Below, in pieces: positions 19,115 through 28,279 of a stretch of DNA of 64,000 bases. The first letter of the stretch is position 1. Each line of letters opens with the position of its first letter. The DNA lies in contig JANQIL010000027.1 of NCBI GenBank assembly GCA_028282245.1, positions 1 to 64,000 of the forward strand, written 5' to 3'. A program made the position numbers and the translations under genes. The notes below the pieces were generated by a model that ran no database searches, was not told the DNA's origin, and saw nothing but the letters and a program-made list of their open reading frames with translations. Source of the stretch: Magnetospira sp. Its GTDB lineage: Bacteria; Pseudomonadota; Alphaproteobacteria; Rhodospirillales; Magnetospiraceae.

Positions 19115-20506
19115 ATGGGCGGCACCAAGTTCGACCTCATCGTCATCGGCGGCGGGCCGGGCGGCTACGTGGCCGCCATCCGCGCCGCGCAACTGGGCAT
19201 GCGGGTCGGCCTCGTGGAACGCGAGCACCTGGGCGGCATCTGCCTCAACTGGGGCTGCATTCCTACCAAGGCCCTCCTGCGCTCCGCCGAGGTCTACGAC
19301 CACATGAAGCACGCGGCAGATTTCGGGTTGATCGCCAGGGACTTCGGGTTCGATCTTCCGAAAGTGGTCGAGCGCTCGCGCAAGGTGGCGGCGCAGCTTT
19401 CCGGTGGCGTGAAACACCTCCTGAAAAAGAACAAGGTGGCGGTGTTCGACGGTCATGGCGCCTTGGACGGCAAGGGGGGGGTGGCGGTCGCCGGCGGCCC
19501 GACGCTCACCGCGCCGCATGTCGTCATCGCCACCGGGGCGCGGGCCCGCCACCTGCCGGGCCTGGAGCCGGACGGACGGTTCGTCTGGAGCTATCGCGAG
19601 GCGCTGGTGCCGGACATCCATCCGAAACGCCTGCTGGTCATCGGCTCGGGCGCCATCGGCATCGAGTTCGCCAGCTTCTTCAACTCCCTGGGTTCCGAGG
19701 TGACGGTGGCCGAGGTGCTGCCGCGCGTTCTGCCGTTCGAGGACGAGGAAATCTCCGCCCTGGCCCACAAGGCGTTCGAGAAAAAGGGCATGACCATCCG
19801 CGTGGGGACCAGGGTCGCCGAACTGAGGAAAGGGGCCGACGAGGTGGTGGCGGTCCTGGACGCGGGCGGCGAGACCTCCGAGATCATCGTCGACCGGGTG
19901 ATCGCGGCGGTTGGCGTGGTGCCCAACGTCGAGGACATCGGGCTGGAGGCGGCCGGCGTGACGCTCACCGACCGGGGCTTCATCCGGGTGGACGGCTGGT
20001 TGCGCGCGAGCACCGAGGGCATTTACGCCATCGGCGACGTGGTCGGGCCGCCCTGCCTGGCCCACAAGGCGTCCCACGAGGGGGTGATCTGCGTCGAAAG
20101 GATCGCCGGGGCTTCGGATGTCCATCCGCTGGACGCCGACCGTATCCCGGCCTGCACCTACTGCCGGCCGCAGGTGGCGAGCGTCGGCCTCTCGGAGGCG
20201 CGGGCCAGGGAACGCGGCCGCGCGGTCCGGGTTGGCCGTTTCCCGTTCCTGGGCAACGGCAAGGCGATCGCCCTGGGCGAGCCGGAGGGGATGGTCAAGA
20301 CGGTGTTCGACGCCGACACCGGCGAACTGCTGGGCGCGCACATGATCGGTGCCGAGGTGACCGAACTGATCCAGGGCTACGGCATCGCCAAGTCCCTGGA
20401 GACCACCGAGGCCGAATTGATGCACACGGTGTTCCCGCATCCCACCCTGTCGGAAATGATGCACGAGAGCGTGCTCGACGCTCACGGGCGGGCGATTCAT
20501 TTTTGA
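19115..20506 (+). CDS. lpdA: Dihydrolipoamide dehydrogenase (PDH E3)
   Basis: Reoxidises dihydrolipoamide with FAD and NAD. 463 residues with FAD motif GGGPGGYVAAIRAAQLG, the redox disulfide Cys43/Cys48 (GGICLNWGCIPTK), an NAD-binding GSGAIGIEFASFF and the C-terminal catalytic His442/Glu447 (HPTLSEMMHE). TAGGAG precedes the ATG. Its last 16 codons lie in a 52-bp sequence repeated perfectly 1.4 kb downstream, so the present 3' end appears to have been restored by an inserted element that copies it. Confidence 0.97.
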   Translation: MGGTKFDLIVIGGGPGGYVAAIRAAQLGMRVGLVEREHLGGICLNWGCIPTKALLRSAEVYDHMKHAADFGLIARDFGFDLPKVVERSRKVAAQLSGGVKHLLKKNKVAVFDGHGALDGKGGVAVAGGPTLTAPHVVIATGARARHLPGLEPDGRFVWSYREALVPDIHPKRLLVIGSGAIGIEFASFFNSLGSEVTVAEVLPRVLPFEDEEISALAHKAFEKKGMTIRVGTRVAELRKGADEVVAVLDAGGETSEIIVDRVIAAVGVVPNVEDIGLEAAGVTLTDRGFIRVDGWLRASTEGIYAIGDVVGPPCLAHKASHEGVICVERIAGASDVHPLDADRIPACTYCRPQVASVGLSEARARERGRAVRVGRFPFLGNGKAIALGEPEGMVKTVFDADTGELLGAHMIGAEVTELIQGYGIAKSLETTEAELMHTVFPHPTLSEMMHESVLDAHGRAIHF

Positions 20507-20509
20507 TCG
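20458..20509 (+). repeat. 52-bp direct repeat, copy 1 (3' end of lpdA)
   Basis: A perfect 52-bp match to 21886-21937, starting GATGCACGAGAGCG and ending TTTTTGATCG. It covers the last 16 codons and stop of lpdA plus three bases. Outside the 52 bp the flanks diverge at once on both sides. Gene-end duplication of this sort is what site-specific integration at a 3' end leaves behind. Confidence 0.95.
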
Positions 20510-20525
20510 AAAAACGCGCAAAGTG

Positions 20526-20948
20526 ATGACGCCGGTTGAGTGGAGCGAAATTGTCCGCAACTACGGCATCTTAGTCGGAGGGTTTGCTGGCTTGGCGATC
20601 GCATTTTGGCGTGGCCGCTCGTTAGCCCTGCAAGCGCGGGCGGCAACGGAGCAGGCTGAATGGGACCGCAGGGATCTGTTAACGGAAACCTTTAACCGCG
20701 CGATTTCTCAGCTTTCCGATGAAAAACTCGAAATTCGGTTAGGAGCAATCTACACACTTCGGGAAATTTGCCTGAACCCTCGACATCAGGATTTGGCGAA
20801 CCCAATCGTGCAGACTTTGACTGCATTCATTCGAGAAAAGACTTCTGATCGGACCGAGGATCGGGTTACCATGGACGTTCAAGTAATTATCGCGCTTCTG
20901 ACCGAATATACTGCCCGATACGCTGTGGAGAATTCTGGCAATGAGTAA
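20526..20948 (+). CDS. Membrane-anchored helical protein, partner of the pentapeptide-repeat protein
   Basis: About 140 residues. One N-terminal membrane segment (about 12-27, YGILVGGFAGLAIAFW) is followed by a charged helix (ALQARAATEQAEWDRRD) and a helical region (RLGAIYTLREICLNP, then PIVQTLTAFIRE). This layout is familiar from the N-terminal part of larger membrane pentapeptide-repeat proteins, which carry a similar RLGaIYaLeRIa...VmevLtaFIRe stretch before their repeats. Here it is a separate gene that overlaps the next by 8 bp (ATGAGTAA). A GTG at 20523 could replace ATG 20526. The ribosome-binding site is poor. Function unknown. Confidence 0.72.
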   Translation: MTPVEWSEIVRNYGILVGGFAGLAIAFWRGRSLALQARAATEQAEWDRRDLLTETFNRAISQLSDEKLEIRLGAIYTLREICLNPRHQDLANPIVQTLTAFIREKTSDRTEDRVTMDVQVIIALLTEYTARYAVENSGNE

Positions 20949-21846
20949 GGCCATTAATCTTACTGGCGCGCGCCTTCCGCGAACCGATTGGCATGGGGCG
21001 GTGTTGAACGGCGCCAAGTTCGCTGGCGCAATTATGAACAACGCTGATCTACGCGGCGCTTCGATGGGTAAGGCGAACTTCAATGACGCAGTTTTGAATA
21101 ATGTGAATCTGTCTCGGGTCATGGCCGAATACGCCGATTTTTCGAACGCCATCTTGGACGGTGCGAATCTTCGCGATGGCTGCTTCAACGGTGCTTCCTT
21201 TAAAAATGCGATCATGAATAGCGCGGATTTTCGTGGAGCAGAGTTGGATTATGCGGACTTTGAACGCGCCATTCTAAACAACGCCAATGTCGAAGGCGTA
21301 GACTTAAGCCGTGCGCGCAATCTCTCGGCGGCGGCAAAGGATTCTCTTCGGTTTGACGATTCAACCGTTTTTCCAGCCGGTTTTGACCTCCATACGTATG
21401 ATATCTCCACGACGACGCACTACGAGAACACCCCCCGGGCCCCGGGCTCGATTTCCATAGGCGGAAGTATTTCCGGATCGGCTGTGGTCGTCGGTAGCCG
21501 AAACACCGTCACCATGACGATCACCAGGACAACCCTGCCCCCGGCGGAGGGCGTGAATATCCGGGCCGAACTGGACGGCCTGCGCGCGGCCCTGGCCGAG
21601 CTTCGGGGCGGCGAGGCCGGCAAGCGCGACCGGGCGATGCAGGACGCCCTGGACGAGGCGCAAAAACCGGCGCCCGACAAGGCGGAGGTGTTGGACTCGG
21701 TCCAGCGGGCCTTGAAGTACGTGGACATGGCGGCTCAGGGGGCGGAGAAGATCGACAAGCTTCAACAGTGGATCAAACCGCTGGCCGCCTGGATCGGCGC
21801 CAACGCGGAGCCGCTGTTGCGCATGGTCGGCTTGTCGGCGTTTTGA
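20941..21846 (+). CDS. Pentapeptide-repeat protein with glycine-rich and helical C-terminus
   Basis: 301 residues. Residues 1-125 are A(D/N)LxxA-type pentapeptide repeats (GAKFAGAIMNNADLRGASMG, NAILDGANLRDGCFNGASF), which form a right-handed quadrilateral beta helix. About 155-185 is a beta-rich Gly/Ser segment, SISIGGSISGSAVVVGSRNT, of a kind found near sensor or adaptor regions of bacterial conflict proteins. The remainder (about 195-301) is Ala/Glu/Lys-rich helix. No enzymatic motif is visible. The start overlaps the upstream membrane gene in the +1 frame, suggesting translational coupling or a frameshift-fused product. The 5' half is lower in GC than the 3' half, so the gene itself looks chimeric. 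Confidence 0.8.
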   Translation: MSKAINLTGARLPRTDWHGAVLNGAKFAGAIMNNADLRGASMGKANFNDAVLNNVNLSRVMAEYADFSNAILDGANLRDGCFNGASFKNAIMNSADFRGAELDYADFERAILNNANVEGVDLSRARNLSAAAKDSLRFDDSTVFPAGFDLHTYDISTTTHYENTPRAPGSISIGGSISGSAVVVGSRNTVTMTITRTTLPPAEGVNIRAELDGLRAALAELRGGEAGKRDRAMQDALDEAQKPAPDKAEVLDSVQRALKYVDMAAQGAEKIDKLQQWIKPLAAWIGANAEPLLRMVGLSAF

Positions 21847-22010: not shown

Positions 22011-24002
22011 TTATGCGGTGCCGGTTGTGCGGGCGGGCAGGGGGCGCTTGCCGTCTTCAAGGACTCCTGGCCGGGACGGAGCGAGGGTCTGGATCGGCAT
22101 GTGGGTCGGGGTTTCCGGCGGGGTTCGGGGCAATTCGTCGATGGCCGAGACGGCCAGGGCCTCGCGGCAGCGGCGGCCGATGGCGCCGGTCCGAAGCCGG
22201 GTGACCGGCGGCGGCGCGGTTTCCTCCGGGATCCGGAAGACGCCCAACCCGCGCAGGCGGCGTCCCAGCGCCGGGCTGCTGGAATAGATGGTCAGCGGAA
22301 TCGAGATCGTCAGGCCGACGATCACCGGCAGCATCCACCAGAAGAAGGCGGGCACGTAGATCAGGGTCAGGGCGGCCCAGGCGATCCCGATCAGGGTCGG
22401 CGGTAGCAGTGGCATCGCCACGTCACGCAGCCGCAGGCGGCCGTCCTCGCGGTCCTGGGGCAGCCATCCGACGCTGCGCCCGGCCAGGATGGTGACCACG
22501 AAGACGGCGTGGAGGTACATCAGCAGCGGCGCCACCAGAATGGCGAACAGGGTTTCCGACAGGGCGCTGACGATCAGGCGCCGCGTGCCCCCGAACCGTT
22601 GCCGGCTCCGAGGATCGGACAGCAGAAGCGCGGTTCCGAGCAGCTTGGGCAGGAACAGCATCGCCGCGGTGAAGGCCATCAGGCCGATGATGGAGTCCTC
22701 GCGCACCACGTGCCAGTTCGGGAACAACTGATGGCCGTTACCGAAGAAATCATGCGGCACCACGGATTTCCAGATCGCCTCTCCGGTGCTCAAGGCGAGC
22801 AGGGCGAGCCACAGAAGGGACGAGATATAGGCCAGGGCGCCGAGCAGGAATTGAAACCGGCTCAGGGGATGCAGGCGGCTGGCGGCGAGCAGCTTCAGAT
22901 GCTGCATGTTGCCCTGCGCCCAGCGCCGGTCCCGCTTGGCGAAATCCATCAGGTTGGTCGGGATTTCCTCGTAGCTGCCTTCCAGTTCCGGCAGGATGAA
23001 GACCCGCCAGCCATGCCGCCGCAAGAGCGACGATTCCACGAAGTCGTGGCTGAGAATCTCGCCGCCGAGCGGAGGCCGCCCCGGCAGTTCGGGCAGGCCA
23101 CAGCTTTTCGTGAACGCCGCGACGCGAAGGATGGCGTTGTGGCCCCAATACTGGGACTCGCCCATCTGCCAGAAGCTCAGACCGTTGGCCAGCATCGGCC
23201 CGTAGGCCCGCATCGCGAACTGGGCGAAACGGGCGAACGGGGTCTGCCGACGGACCAGCAGCGGGACCGTCTGGATGATGCCGGCCGAAGGTGTCGCCTG
23301 CATGGTCGCGACCAGCTTCAGAATGGCCTCGCCGGTCATCAGGCTGTCGGCGTCCAGCACGATCATGAAGTCGTATCGCCGGCCCCAGCGGCGGCAGAAA
23401 TCCGCGATATTGCCGGCCTTGCGTCCCGTGTTCTCGGCGCGCCGTCGATAAAACAGGCGGTCTCTGGCCTTGAGATCGCGGCGCAGCGCGGCAATCCCGG
23501 CTTCCTCCATCGCGGCGATCCCGGAGTCGGTGCTGTCGCTCAGTACGAAGAAATCGAAGTGGTCGAGACATCCGGTCTTCGCCAAGGACCGGTACATGCT
23601 GTCCAGGCGCGCCAGCACGGCCGCCGTGTCCTCGTTGTAGACCGGCATCAGGATCGCGGTGCGGCCGCGAATCTCGCCGGCCCGCGTGGGGGTGATTTCG
23701 GCCCGTCGCCGGAGTTGGATCGGGTCAAGGCGGGCGGCGCGCAGAAGACCGCCGGCGATGGCGGTCCAGAACGAGATGGAGATCCAGCCGAAGGTGGCCG
23801 CGAACAGCACCAGGACCGCGCTCTCGATCGGGGCCATGCCGTTGGCGGCGAGGATGTCGAACATCATCCGCGTGCCGAGCCCGGTCGTCAGGAGGACCAA
23901 TCCAAAAAAGCCGATCCGTCGGACGAGCGCCAGCGGCGGCCGGGCGCCGAGGCGGGTGTCGGCCGGTCGGCGTCGGCGGAGCGTTTGGCTAATCGAGATC
24001 AT
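22011..24002 (-). CDS. opgH: Glucans biosynthesis glucosyltransferase H
   Basis: Inner-membrane GT2 glycosyltransferase that builds the beta-1,2-linked backbone of osmoregulated periplasmic glucans from UDP-glucose. 663 residues: two N-terminal membrane segments (about 28-90), a cytoplasmic GT2 domain (TAILMPVYNED, VLDADSLMTGEA, ILSHDFVESSLLRRHGW, RRWAQGNMQHLK) and several C-terminal membrane helices, as in E. coli OpgH. The tail from about 600 is Pro-rich and not conserved. Its start lies inside the last codons of opgG (14-bp overlap), so the two are coupled. Confidence 0.95.
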   Translation of the reverse strand: MISISQTLRRRRPADTRLGARPPLALVRRIGFFGLVLLTTGLGTRMMFDILAANGMAPIESAVLVLFAATFGWISISFWTAIAGGLLRAARLDPIQLRRRAEITPTRAGEIRGRTAILMPVYNEDTAAVLARLDSMYRSLAKTGCLDHFDFFVLSDSTDSGIAAMEEAGIAALRRDLKARDRLFYRRRAENTGRKAGNIADFCRRWGRRYDFMIVLDADSLMTGEAILKLVATMQATPSAGIIQTVPLLVRRQTPFARFAQFAMRAYGPMLANGLSFWQMGESQYWGHNAILRVAAFTKSCGLPELPGRPPLGGEILSHDFVESSLLRRHGWRVFILPELEGSYEEIPTNLMDFAKRDRRWAQGNMQHLKLLAASRLHPLSRFQFLLGALAYISSLLWLALLALSTGEAIWKSVVPHDFFGNGHQLFPNWHVVREDSIIGLMAFTAAMLFLPKLLGTALLLSDPRSRQRFGGTRRLIVSALSETLFAILVAPLLMYLHAVFVVTILAGRSVGWLPQDREDGRLRLRDVAMPLLPPTLIGIAWAALTLIYVPAFFWWMLPVIVGLTISIPLTIYSSSPALGRRLRGLGVFRIPEETAPPPVTRLRTGAIGRRCREALAVSAIDELPRTPPETPTHMPIQTLAPSRPGVLEDGKRPLPARTTGTA

Positions 24003-25584
24003 GGGACGACCATATGTAGTTCCAGGTTTCGGTCAGTCCGCGTCCCCGAAGGGACAGGGACAGGCGCATGTCGGCGGGCTCGCGGCCTTCGGGGGCGAGG
24101 CGGAAGGCGACCCGCCAATGACCGGTGGTCGGGACCTTCGACACCACCACGTCGAAGATTTCACCGCTGGTGGTGGTCAGGTCGGCGGTGACCGGCTGCG
24201 TCGGATGCAGGGCCGCCAACGCGTCGCCGGCGAACTCGACGACGATGCGGCGCTGGGTATCGGGGCGTCCGGATGCGGTGCCGGGCAGGAAGGTCGACCC
24301 GGTCCGGGTCCGGCTCACCCGGCCGAGACCGTCCGGGATCGGCCAGTCGCGCACCGCGTGCAGGGTATAGGAAAGCGCCAGTTGGTCGCCGGCGCGCGGG
24401 GCCCGGGCCGGCACCCAGAAGGCGACGATGTTGTCGTTGATCTCGCTCGCGGTTGGGATTTCGATCAACTGGATGTTGCCGTCGCCCCAATGGCCGCCCG
24501 TGGGCTCGACCCATAGGCCGGGACGCTTCTGGTAATTGGCGTCCATGTCGAGATAGTGCTCGAAATCGCGGTCGCGCTGCATCAGCCCGAAGCCGACGGG
24601 ATCATCGGCCGTAAAGGCCGAGATGCGGAGTTGGCGTGGGTTGGCGAGCGGCCGCCAGATCCATCCGCCGTCGCGTGCCTGGATCAATAGGCCGTCGGAA
24701 TCATGGATTTCATGGCGAAAGTCGTCGAACCGCTTCGGATCGTTCTCACCGCTCAGGTACATGCTGGTCAGCGGCGCGATTCCCAGCCTGTCCACGTCGT
24801 CGCGGAAGAAGAGGCGCGCCTTGACCCGCACGCGGGTATCGCGCCCCGGTTCGATGTCGAACCGATAGGCGCCGGCGAGGGAGGGACCGTCCAGGTAGGC
24901 ATACAGGGTGAACGTGGTCGCGTCCGGCGCCGGTTTGACCAGCCAGAACTCTCGGAAGCTCGGGAACTCCTCGCCGGACGGCAGACCGGTGTTCACGGCG
25001 ATTCCGCGCGCCGAGATGCCGTAGGCCTGATCGCGGCCCAGCAGGCGGAAGTAGGAGGCCCCAAGGAACACCGTGACCTCGTCCTTGTAGTCGGGGCGAT
25101 GCAGTGGGTAGTGGACGCGGAATCCGGCGAACCCGAGCCCCTCGGCGCGCGGCGCCGGGTCCAGATTCAGTCCCTCGTGGGTGAAGAGGCCGGGATCGAA
25201 GGTCACTTTGCGTGGCCCGTTTTCGTCCACCGCGTGAATGGCCACCGGCTCGCCGTACAGGAATCCCGGGTGCAGGAACTCGACGGCGAACAGCCCGCTG
25301 TCTTGCCACAGGGCGAGATCCTTGCGGAAACGGATCGACCGGTATTGGTCGTAGGTCAGATCGGATAGGGCCGCGGGCAGGCTGGTTTCGGGCGGCAGAT
25401 AGGGAGTCGCGGCCGCCCGCGCCGCCTGATCAACCACCTTTTGAAACAGGGGATCGGGTGTTTCGGCCTGGGCCCGGGAAATCACGAGGAGAACCGCCAA
25501 GCCGAAACAGGCCAGCCATTTCGGAACGCCCCTTGAACCTGCGGCGGCGCGGGTGAACCGCATTGGTCTGGTCTCTACATGCAT
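23989..25584 (-). CDS. opgG: Periplasmic glucan biosynthesis protein G
   Basis: Periplasmic partner of OpgH in glucan synthesis or branching. A signal peptide (KWLACFGLAVLLVISRAQA, cleavage before ETPDP) precedes the beta-sandwich family body with LTYDQYRSIRFRKDLALW, FPSFREFWLVKP, SMYLSGEND, RDFEHYLDMDANYQKRPG and WGDGNIQLIEIP. The frame can start at 25602, 25584 or 25563; the last leaves a compact signal peptide, the middle one is listed. Family members of this kind are named OpgG or OpgD; the operon with opgH favours OpgG. Confidence 0.92.
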   Translation of the reverse strand: MHVETRPMRFTRAAAGSRGVPKWLACFGLAVLLVISRAQAETPDPLFQKVVDQAARAAATPYLPPETSLPAALSDLTYDQYRSIRFRKDLALWQDSGLFAVEFLHPGFLYGEPVAIHAVDENGPRKVTFDPGLFTHEGLNLDPAPRAEGLGFAGFRVHYPLHRPDYKDEVTVFLGASYFRLLGRDQAYGISARGIAVNTGLPSGEEFPSFREFWLVKPAPDATTFTLYAYLDGPSLAGAYRFDIEPGRDTRVRVKARLFFRDDVDRLGIAPLTSMYLSGENDPKRFDDFRHEIHDSDGLLIQARDGGWIWRPLANPRQLRISAFTADDPVGFGLMQRDRDFEHYLDMDANYQKRPGLWVEPTGGHWGDGNIQLIEIPTASEINDNIVAFWVPARAPRAGDQLALSYTLHAVRDWPIPDGLGRVSRTRTGSTFLPGTASGRPDTQRRIVVEFAGDALAALHPTQPVTADLTTTSGEIFDVVVSKVPTTGHWRVAFRLAPEGREPADMRLSLSLRGRGLTETWNYIWSSHDLD

Positions 25585-25602
25585 CCGGGCGTCTCCGAAC
25601 AA

Positions 25603-27313: not shown

Positions 27314-28279
27314 GTGGACGACGAAGCGCGGACGCCCCATATCGACACCATGACCGAGTCCCGTTCCCGGAGGCATCCGGAAAAGACCCATCGCCCGGAC
27401 AACTCGATCCAGCGCAAGCCGGCCTGGATTCGCGTCAAGGCGCCGACCTCGAAGGGCTACGCCGAGACCCGCGACCGGCTGCGCGCCAGGAACCTGCACA
27501 CGGTCTGCGAGGAGGCGGCCTGCCCGAACATCGGGGAATGCTGGGCGCGTGGCCATGCGACGGTGATGATCCTGGGCGATATCTGCACCCGGGGCTGCGC
27601 GTTCTGCAACGTCGCGACCGGGCGGCCCGGGCCGGTCGACCCGCTGGAACCCGAAAACGTGGCGCTTACGGCCGCCGAATCCGCCCTGTCGCACATGGTC
27701 ATCACCTCGGTCGACCGCGACGATCTGGCGGACGGCGGCGCCGCGCAGTTCGCCGCGTGCATCCGGGCGGTGCGGACGGCGTCCCCGTCCACCACCATCG
27801 AGGTGCTGACCCCGGATTTCCGTGACAAGCCGGGCGCCCTGGATACCGTCGTCGCGGCGGGGCCGGACGTGTTCAACCATAACCTTGAATGCGTGCCGCG
27901 CCTGTATCCGTCGATCCGCCCCGGTGCCCGGTACTATCATTCGCTGCGCCTCCTCGACCAAGCCAAGGCCCTTGACGGCGACCTGTTCACCAAGTCGGGG
28001 ATCATGGTCGGGCTGGGCGAGACGCGTTCGGAGGTGCTTCAGGTGATGGACGACATGCGCTCGGCCGGGGTCGATTTCCTGACCGTCGGGCAGTACCTGC
28101 AACCCACGCCGAAGCATGCGCCGGTGGACCGGTTCGTCCCCCCCCGGGAATTCGACGACTATGCAAGCACCGCCCGATCGAAGGGGTTCCGGATGGTCGC
28201 GTCATCGCCGCTCACCCGGTCGTCGCACCACGCCGACCGGGATTTCGCGGCCCTGCGCGCCGCCGGGGCCTCAACATGA
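27314..28279 (+). CDS. lipA: Lipoyl synthase
   Basis: Radical-SAM enzyme inserting two sulfurs into octanoyl-protein to make lipoate, the cofactor of PdhB and PdhC encoded upstream. 321 residues from a GTG start: auxiliary cluster Cys65/70/76 ([12 protein letters not shown]), radical-SAM CxxxCxxC at 91/95/98 (CTRGCAFC), then [13 protein letters not shown] and [13 protein letters not shown]. An ATG at 27350 is an alternative start. In many Alphaproteobacteria lipA lies right after lpdA; here 6.8 kb intervene. Confidence 0.96.

Follow-up and report, generated by a model that had tools for sequence, protein, structure and literature searches.

Downstream of the lpd gene of a Magnetospira sp. lie two overlapping genes, A and B, that encode a membrane-anchored protein and a pentapeptide-repeat protein. 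The locus raises the question of whether these really are two genes and, if so, what such a pair does next to genes for PDH and lipoate metabolism. The window, that is the whole stretch of DNA that was analyzed, comprises 64,000 nucleotides of contig JANQIL010000027.1, and the genome that it comes from is referred to as G000. The genes that matter here are the following.

19115 to 20506, plus strand: lpd, dihydrolipoamide dehydrogenase (PDH E3)
20526 to 20948, plus strand: gene A, a membrane-anchored protein with a predicted armadillo/HEAT-like helical part (alternative start GTG at 20523)
20941 to 20948, plus strand: A/B overlap ATGAGTAA, 8 bp, of the termination–reinitiation type
20941 to 21846, plus strand: gene B, a pentapeptide-repeat protein with an added C-terminal module
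22011 to 25602, minus strand: two genes of glucan biosynthesis (mdoH/mdoG type by eye), between B and an arsM-like gene
27314 to 28279, plus strand: lipA, lipoyl synthase

The two ORFs with their 8-bp overlap, B being in the +1 frame relative to A, were confirmed in the ORF list. The list starts A at the GTG (20523–20948), but the ATG at 20526 was favored by aligned orthologues. Standalone A genes were searched for in 317 genomes of the order and in a class-wide sample of 385, and eight were found beyond those of G000 and of G001, an independent genome of the same genus. The ten pair genomes (G000, G001, G543, G489, G466, G274, G070, G285, G087, and G140) belong to eight families. A preliminary description of the locus had considered that the second ORF might be an assembly frameshift error. 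The split is not an error, because G001 also has separate A and B ORFs (17-bp overlap; A 81% identical), and the eight further genomes have it too; frameshift or assembly error as the source of the split was thus refuted by the orthologues. A programmed frameshift fusion of A and B, also raised at that stage, is unlikely because the A/B spacing varies from genome to genome. One-piece membrane pentapeptide genes do exist, one of them in the window's genome, but that A and B are such a gene broken by a frameshift or assembly error has next to no probability, given that ten genomes retain the split, that the overlaps vary among them, and that the split forms make up one clade under purifying selection.

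Two features of protein A were used to place it among known proteins.

20553 to 20609, plus strand: predicted membrane helix of A (VRNYGILVGGFAGLAIAFW), called from sequence, within modeled helix 4–63; the hydrophobic block is conserved in the alignment
20667 to 20834, plus strand: conserved block of A (TETFNRAISQLSDEKLEIRLGAIYTLREIC..TLTAFIRE), with invariant alignment columns, common to one-piece proteins (hmmsearch)

The single predicted membrane helix agrees with the preliminary description of the first product as membrane anchored. A single-sequence model of A (mean pLDDT 73) consisted of a helix spanning residues 4–63, including the membrane segment, followed by helical hairpins. A fold search with this model returned nothing significant (weak armadillo-type matches, best E 0.32), and A had no family match above the family cut-off. 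Purifying selection on A was apparent from dN/dS values of 0.24 against G001 and 0.14 for G543 against G489. The proposed resemblance of A to the N-terminal part of one-piece membrane pentapeptide proteins was supported by homology and profile searches. These proteins are laid out as an N-terminal membrane helix, an ERF..AIEQL..(V/I)RLGGIYTLERIA block and pentapeptides, so that their N-terminal half matches A and their repeat half matches B. The pair differs in consisting of two overlapping genes of single origin that always lie between lpd and lipA, whereas the one-piece genes sit elsewhere in the genome. The one-piece homologue in the window's genome is nearly host-like in composition (GC3 0.82). 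A second, unrelated way of splitting a one-piece-type gene was seen in G040 (L026:1024-2262), where a same-frame stop, with a GTG directly after it, interrupts the membrane pentapeptide gene.

Protein B was divided into four parts.

20950 to 21315, plus strand: pentapeptide repeats (Pfam Pentapeptide PF00805, E 2.9e-32)
21316 to 21390, plus strand: C-cap (NLSAAAKDSLRFDDSTVFPAGFDL), where the orthologues end (alignment)
21448 to 21525, plus strand: Gly-rich beta motif SISIGGSISGSAVVVGSRNTVTMTIT, amyloid-signaling-like (motif profile E 9.6e-9; alignments)
21526 to 21843, plus strand: helical module, homologous to proteins encoded before NACHT/STAND genes

The order of repeats, Gly-rich segment and helical tail given in the preliminary description was confirmed, the repeats being followed by GGSISGSAVVVGSRNT and then by the helical C-terminus. 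In the alignment, the B orthologues of the order stop near residue 150, at a D-T-T-LP cap. A predicted structure of B from a two-row alignment was unusable (pLDDT 38), and no enzyme motif was found in the A/B pair. Assignment of B to the quinolone-resistance (Qnr) or MfpA type was rejected, as the similarity is generic to pentapeptide proteins. Qnr, MfpA and HetL share with B the pentapeptide beta-helix fold class, but B scores far below the curated family cut-offs, and those families have no membrane partner or tail of the A/B kind. B evolves faster than A: within the genus, identity falls from about 92% in the 5' part of A to about 52–68% through B, and B is far more diverged than either A or lpd. 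In the B proteins of G285, G087 and G140, the pentapeptide cap is followed by short extensions whose sequence is not that of the tail, so the C-terminus of B is a site of repeated additions.

The preliminary description had held that the pair has no metabolic partner. This was wrong, because all ten split pairs lie in the slot between lpd and lipA. In 10/10 cases the standalone A gene has lpd upstream, the pentapeptide gene B after it and lipA beyond. Neither lpd nor lipA was found within a flank of about 1.5 kb at any of 43 other A-domain loci, which mostly encode one-piece proteins. Outside the genus, lpd at the pair loci is 65–70% identical (tblastn), and the genes are closely packed in all eight genomes, with lpd–A gaps of 3–17 bp, and with lipA directly 3' of B, either through a 4-bp ATGA-type overlap (five genomes) or after gaps of 0, 4 and 19 bp. 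Such tight spacing suggests translational coupling from lpd through lipA. In the window, A is likewise standalone, falls in the split clade and directly follows lpd, with B directly after it, but lipA, which is displaced in this genus, lies about 5.5 kb from B, and B is extended by the tail and does not abut it. Inserted genes thus break the link to lipA in this genus, yet A is retained. Between positions 22011 and 26862, the two mdoH/mdoG-type genes and an arsM-like gene separate B from an acetyltransferase gene and lipA; at the 3' side of the pair in G001, the arsM-like gene is present and the mdo genes are absent.

Few sets of core genes have been studied as well as the PDH and lipoate operon. 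Among the listed hits of a literature search, none mentioned a pentapeptide protein in it. The pair is tightly packed inside this core operon in at least eight families, and its position makes a role in PDH function directly and cheaply testable.

The origin and distribution of the pair were then compared with those of lpd. In a tree of the A domain, the ten split A proteins fell into one group (98/93) together with one long-branch one-piece row, and a single clade of split A proteins was not rejected (AU p 0.278). The pair is rare (5/317 genomes of the order) and scattered on the lpd tree, where seven changes are needed; the lpd genes of G489, which carries the pair, and of G058, which does not, are sisters. 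In pair-less relatives, lpd and lipA stay close, with about 128 bp between them in G058. The G+C content of the pair was below that of lpd in 10/10 genomes, and at synonymous sites the pair can be far more diverged than lpd. Because it is patchy and low in G+C, under purifying selection and confined to a fixed slot, the pair looks like an accessory module of the core operon. The pair may reasonably, though this is unproved, have been gained by recombination through the conserved genes on either side.

A further feature of the window, a perfect direct repeat, bears on how the pair may have arrived there.

20458 to 20509, plus strand: first copy of the 52-bp direct repeat, made up of the lpd 3' end and the bases that follow the stop codon
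21886 to 21937, plus strand: second copy of the 52-bp direct repeat, which duplicates the lpd end and is non-coding

If one repeat unit were lost, lpd would be exactly restored. On this basis A, B and the tail could make up a mobile cassette of 1,428 bp that inserted at the lpd 3' end and has the repeats as its attachment sites, and the foreign composition of A and B fits such an origin. This reading was nonetheless considered improbable. No recombinase or integrase is encoded in the 1.4-kb unit, the pair of G001 sits at the same place with no repeat seen after B, none of the other lpd loci examined has the lpd-end repeat 3' of lpd, and no empty site was seen in this species. The tail, which lies inside the unit, has a host-like GC3 of 0.85, against 0.55–0.57 for A and B. 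A scar left by recombination of a pair-bearing with a pair-less allele accounts for the repeat equally well and is as likely as an attachment site. Of the mobile-looking cassette in the preliminary description, therefore, the foreign composition and patchy occurrence stood, and the integrase and the repeat in the sister genome were lacking.

The tail was found in the window's B and in none of the other nine orthologous pairs. At its boundary, G+C rises from about 50% to 68% and GC3 from 0.57 to 0.85, so the fusion joins two kinds of DNA. An independently started tail protein was rejected, as B residues 121–181 hold no in-frame ATG, GTG or TTG, and a phage origin was rejected in that no match was found in phages or viral contigs; Pfam, NCBIfam and PHROGs gave nothing significant. 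The tail could be aligned over its full length with five relatives, most of them adjoining STAND genes, and it keeps the conserved residues of the family. Relatives include a standalone protein in G026, proteins adjoining a STAND-TPR protein in G486 and a STAND-like protein in G509, and one in G622 whose gene overlaps a STAND-like gene; two more distant ones are adaptors preceding NACHT genes in Acaryochloris and Nostoc. In a CHAT and nSTAND1 operon on a Tolypothrix plasmid (NZ_CP063794), the C-terminal module of the CHAT protein shares about 38% identity with the tail across 101 residues; there the module is fused to a CHAT protease-type domain, in the window to pentapeptide repeats. The earlier view of the tail as conflict-protein-like held up, its relatives being encoded immediately ahead of NACHT/STAND genes or forming the C-terminal end of a CHAT protein. 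In G001 (L060:1998-2090), the in-frame sequence after B, MSGVLLKLGNRGVENGSISKIRDGSIERRH, is similar to the beginning of the tail motif and could be what is left of a lost tail, but this candidate (GSISKIRDGSI) is too short to tell gain in the window's genome from loss in G001.

The tail thus leads to a small adaptor family that has no Pfam model, is encoded just before NACHT/STAND genes and has an N-terminal motif in common with their products. For six adaptor/NLR neighbors, the motif occurs in both proteins (p at most 0.0015 against 2000 shuffles), with the receptor copies at the N-termini. Two motif classes, ITGDxN and RHIM-like VQIGG, were matched between partners (30/720 permutations as good); within the ITGD class, cognate pairs were not preferred (7/24). 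Bacterial amyloid-signaling motifs of such layout have been described (PMC7889193), and families are still being added to the class (PMC12261475). As in the BASS systems with NLR/STAND receptors (PMC7889193, PMC12261475), a short Gly-rich hydrophobic motif is common to adjacent gene products and lies at the NACHT/STAND N-terminus, and CHAT partners occur. BASS-BELL has its motif at the C-terminus, whereas the tail relatives have it before the helical domain, and the adaptor family is a candidate new amyloid-signaling family of that arrangement. Small adaptor genes directly before NACHT/STAND genes were seen at L077:6035-9770, L078:1764-6416, L079:6110-8097, L092:4959-7491 and L093:4911-7617; these adaptors lack a Pfam model and share a Gly-rich motif of the ITGDxN or VQIGG class with their neighbors.

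The window's B differs from a BASS/NLR signalosome in having no visible receptor partner. The immune link of the tail looks orphaned, because no second copy of the motif was found in the 93%-complete assembly at E up to 10. By eye, the best nSTAND1 match in this genome was an ExeA-like ATPase, and its one CHAT protein was without the tail motif. The preliminary description had also proposed A and B as a small defense module. This was not indicated: PADLOC matched none of A, B and the tail, a second motif copy was not found, and the other nine orthologous pairs are tail-less.

As to what the pair does, the favored reading, held tentatively and at rather less than an even chance, is a membrane-tethered A–B scaffold that serves the E3/lipoylation machinery. 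A would cross the inner membrane once and present an armadillo/HEAT-like helical block, and B would be a pentapeptide beta-helix rod anchored at the membrane by A; the two would be halves of one scaffold. Together they form an accessory gene pair of single origin in some Alphaproteobacteria. It is gene order alone that suggests that A may bind B and that the complex may hold or regulate E3, lipoylated E2 or LipA at the membrane. In the window's genome, foreign genes part B from lipA, and B is fused to the Gly-rich beta motif and helical domain. Against a PDH role stand the absence of the pair from most relatives, its lower G+C, its high synonymous divergence and, in this genus, the retention of A despite the broken link to lipA, and the pair may merely borrow the expression of the operon. 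Somewhat unlikely, but not strongly separated from the scaffold, is therefore an accessory stress, defense or selfish module that merely uses the lpd/lipA slot, is passed on through homologous recombination between the conserved genes on either side and profits from the expression of the operon, with A as the anchor, B as a variable recognition rod and the immune-type tail as a further elaboration. Patchy presence, single origin, the G+C deficit in all ten genomes, the divergence of B within the genus and the homology of the tail to modules beside NACHT/STAND and CHAT genes all fit such a module; the missing PADLOC match, the lack of relatives in viral contigs, the restriction of the tail to one genome and a tight lpd/lipA spacing, as expected of a functional operon member, do not.

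Two readings give the tail a role in immunity. The motif shared by adaptors and receptors, with its matched classes, and the precedent of described bacterial motifs of this layout (PMC7889193) would allow B to be a working signaling partner of an NLR-like immune receptor, the beta motif templating with its counterpart in a STAND protein and recruiting the membrane pair, for example for cell death. That is doubtful, at a low probability, in view of the absent second motif copy, the ExeA-like identity of the best nSTAND1 match, the nine tail-less pairs and the lack of cognate preference within the ITGD class. Less probable still is that the pair acts as an immune guard by sensing the PDH/lipoylation machinery at the membrane. 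If true, the amyloid-like tail would pass on a disturbance of the core complex to a STAND receptor that has been lost from, or is missing in, the window's assembly.

Some further STAND-type and related proteins were noted during these searches. The window's genome encodes a large CHAT-STAND protein elsewhere (L086/L088, G000:C73; frame of 1081 amino acids). G285, which has the pair between lpd and lipA, also encodes a membrane-anchored NB-ARC-like STAND protein (L090:1312-2367, L122) whose N-terminus carries the tail motif, possibly by chance and possibly as a separated partner. At L091 (G304:C136:3316-3609), the helical part of the tail matches the C-terminus of a protein whose gene immediately precedes one that, by eye, encodes a MoxR-like ATPase, which suggests that the helical module is used in MoxR-type conflict systems too.
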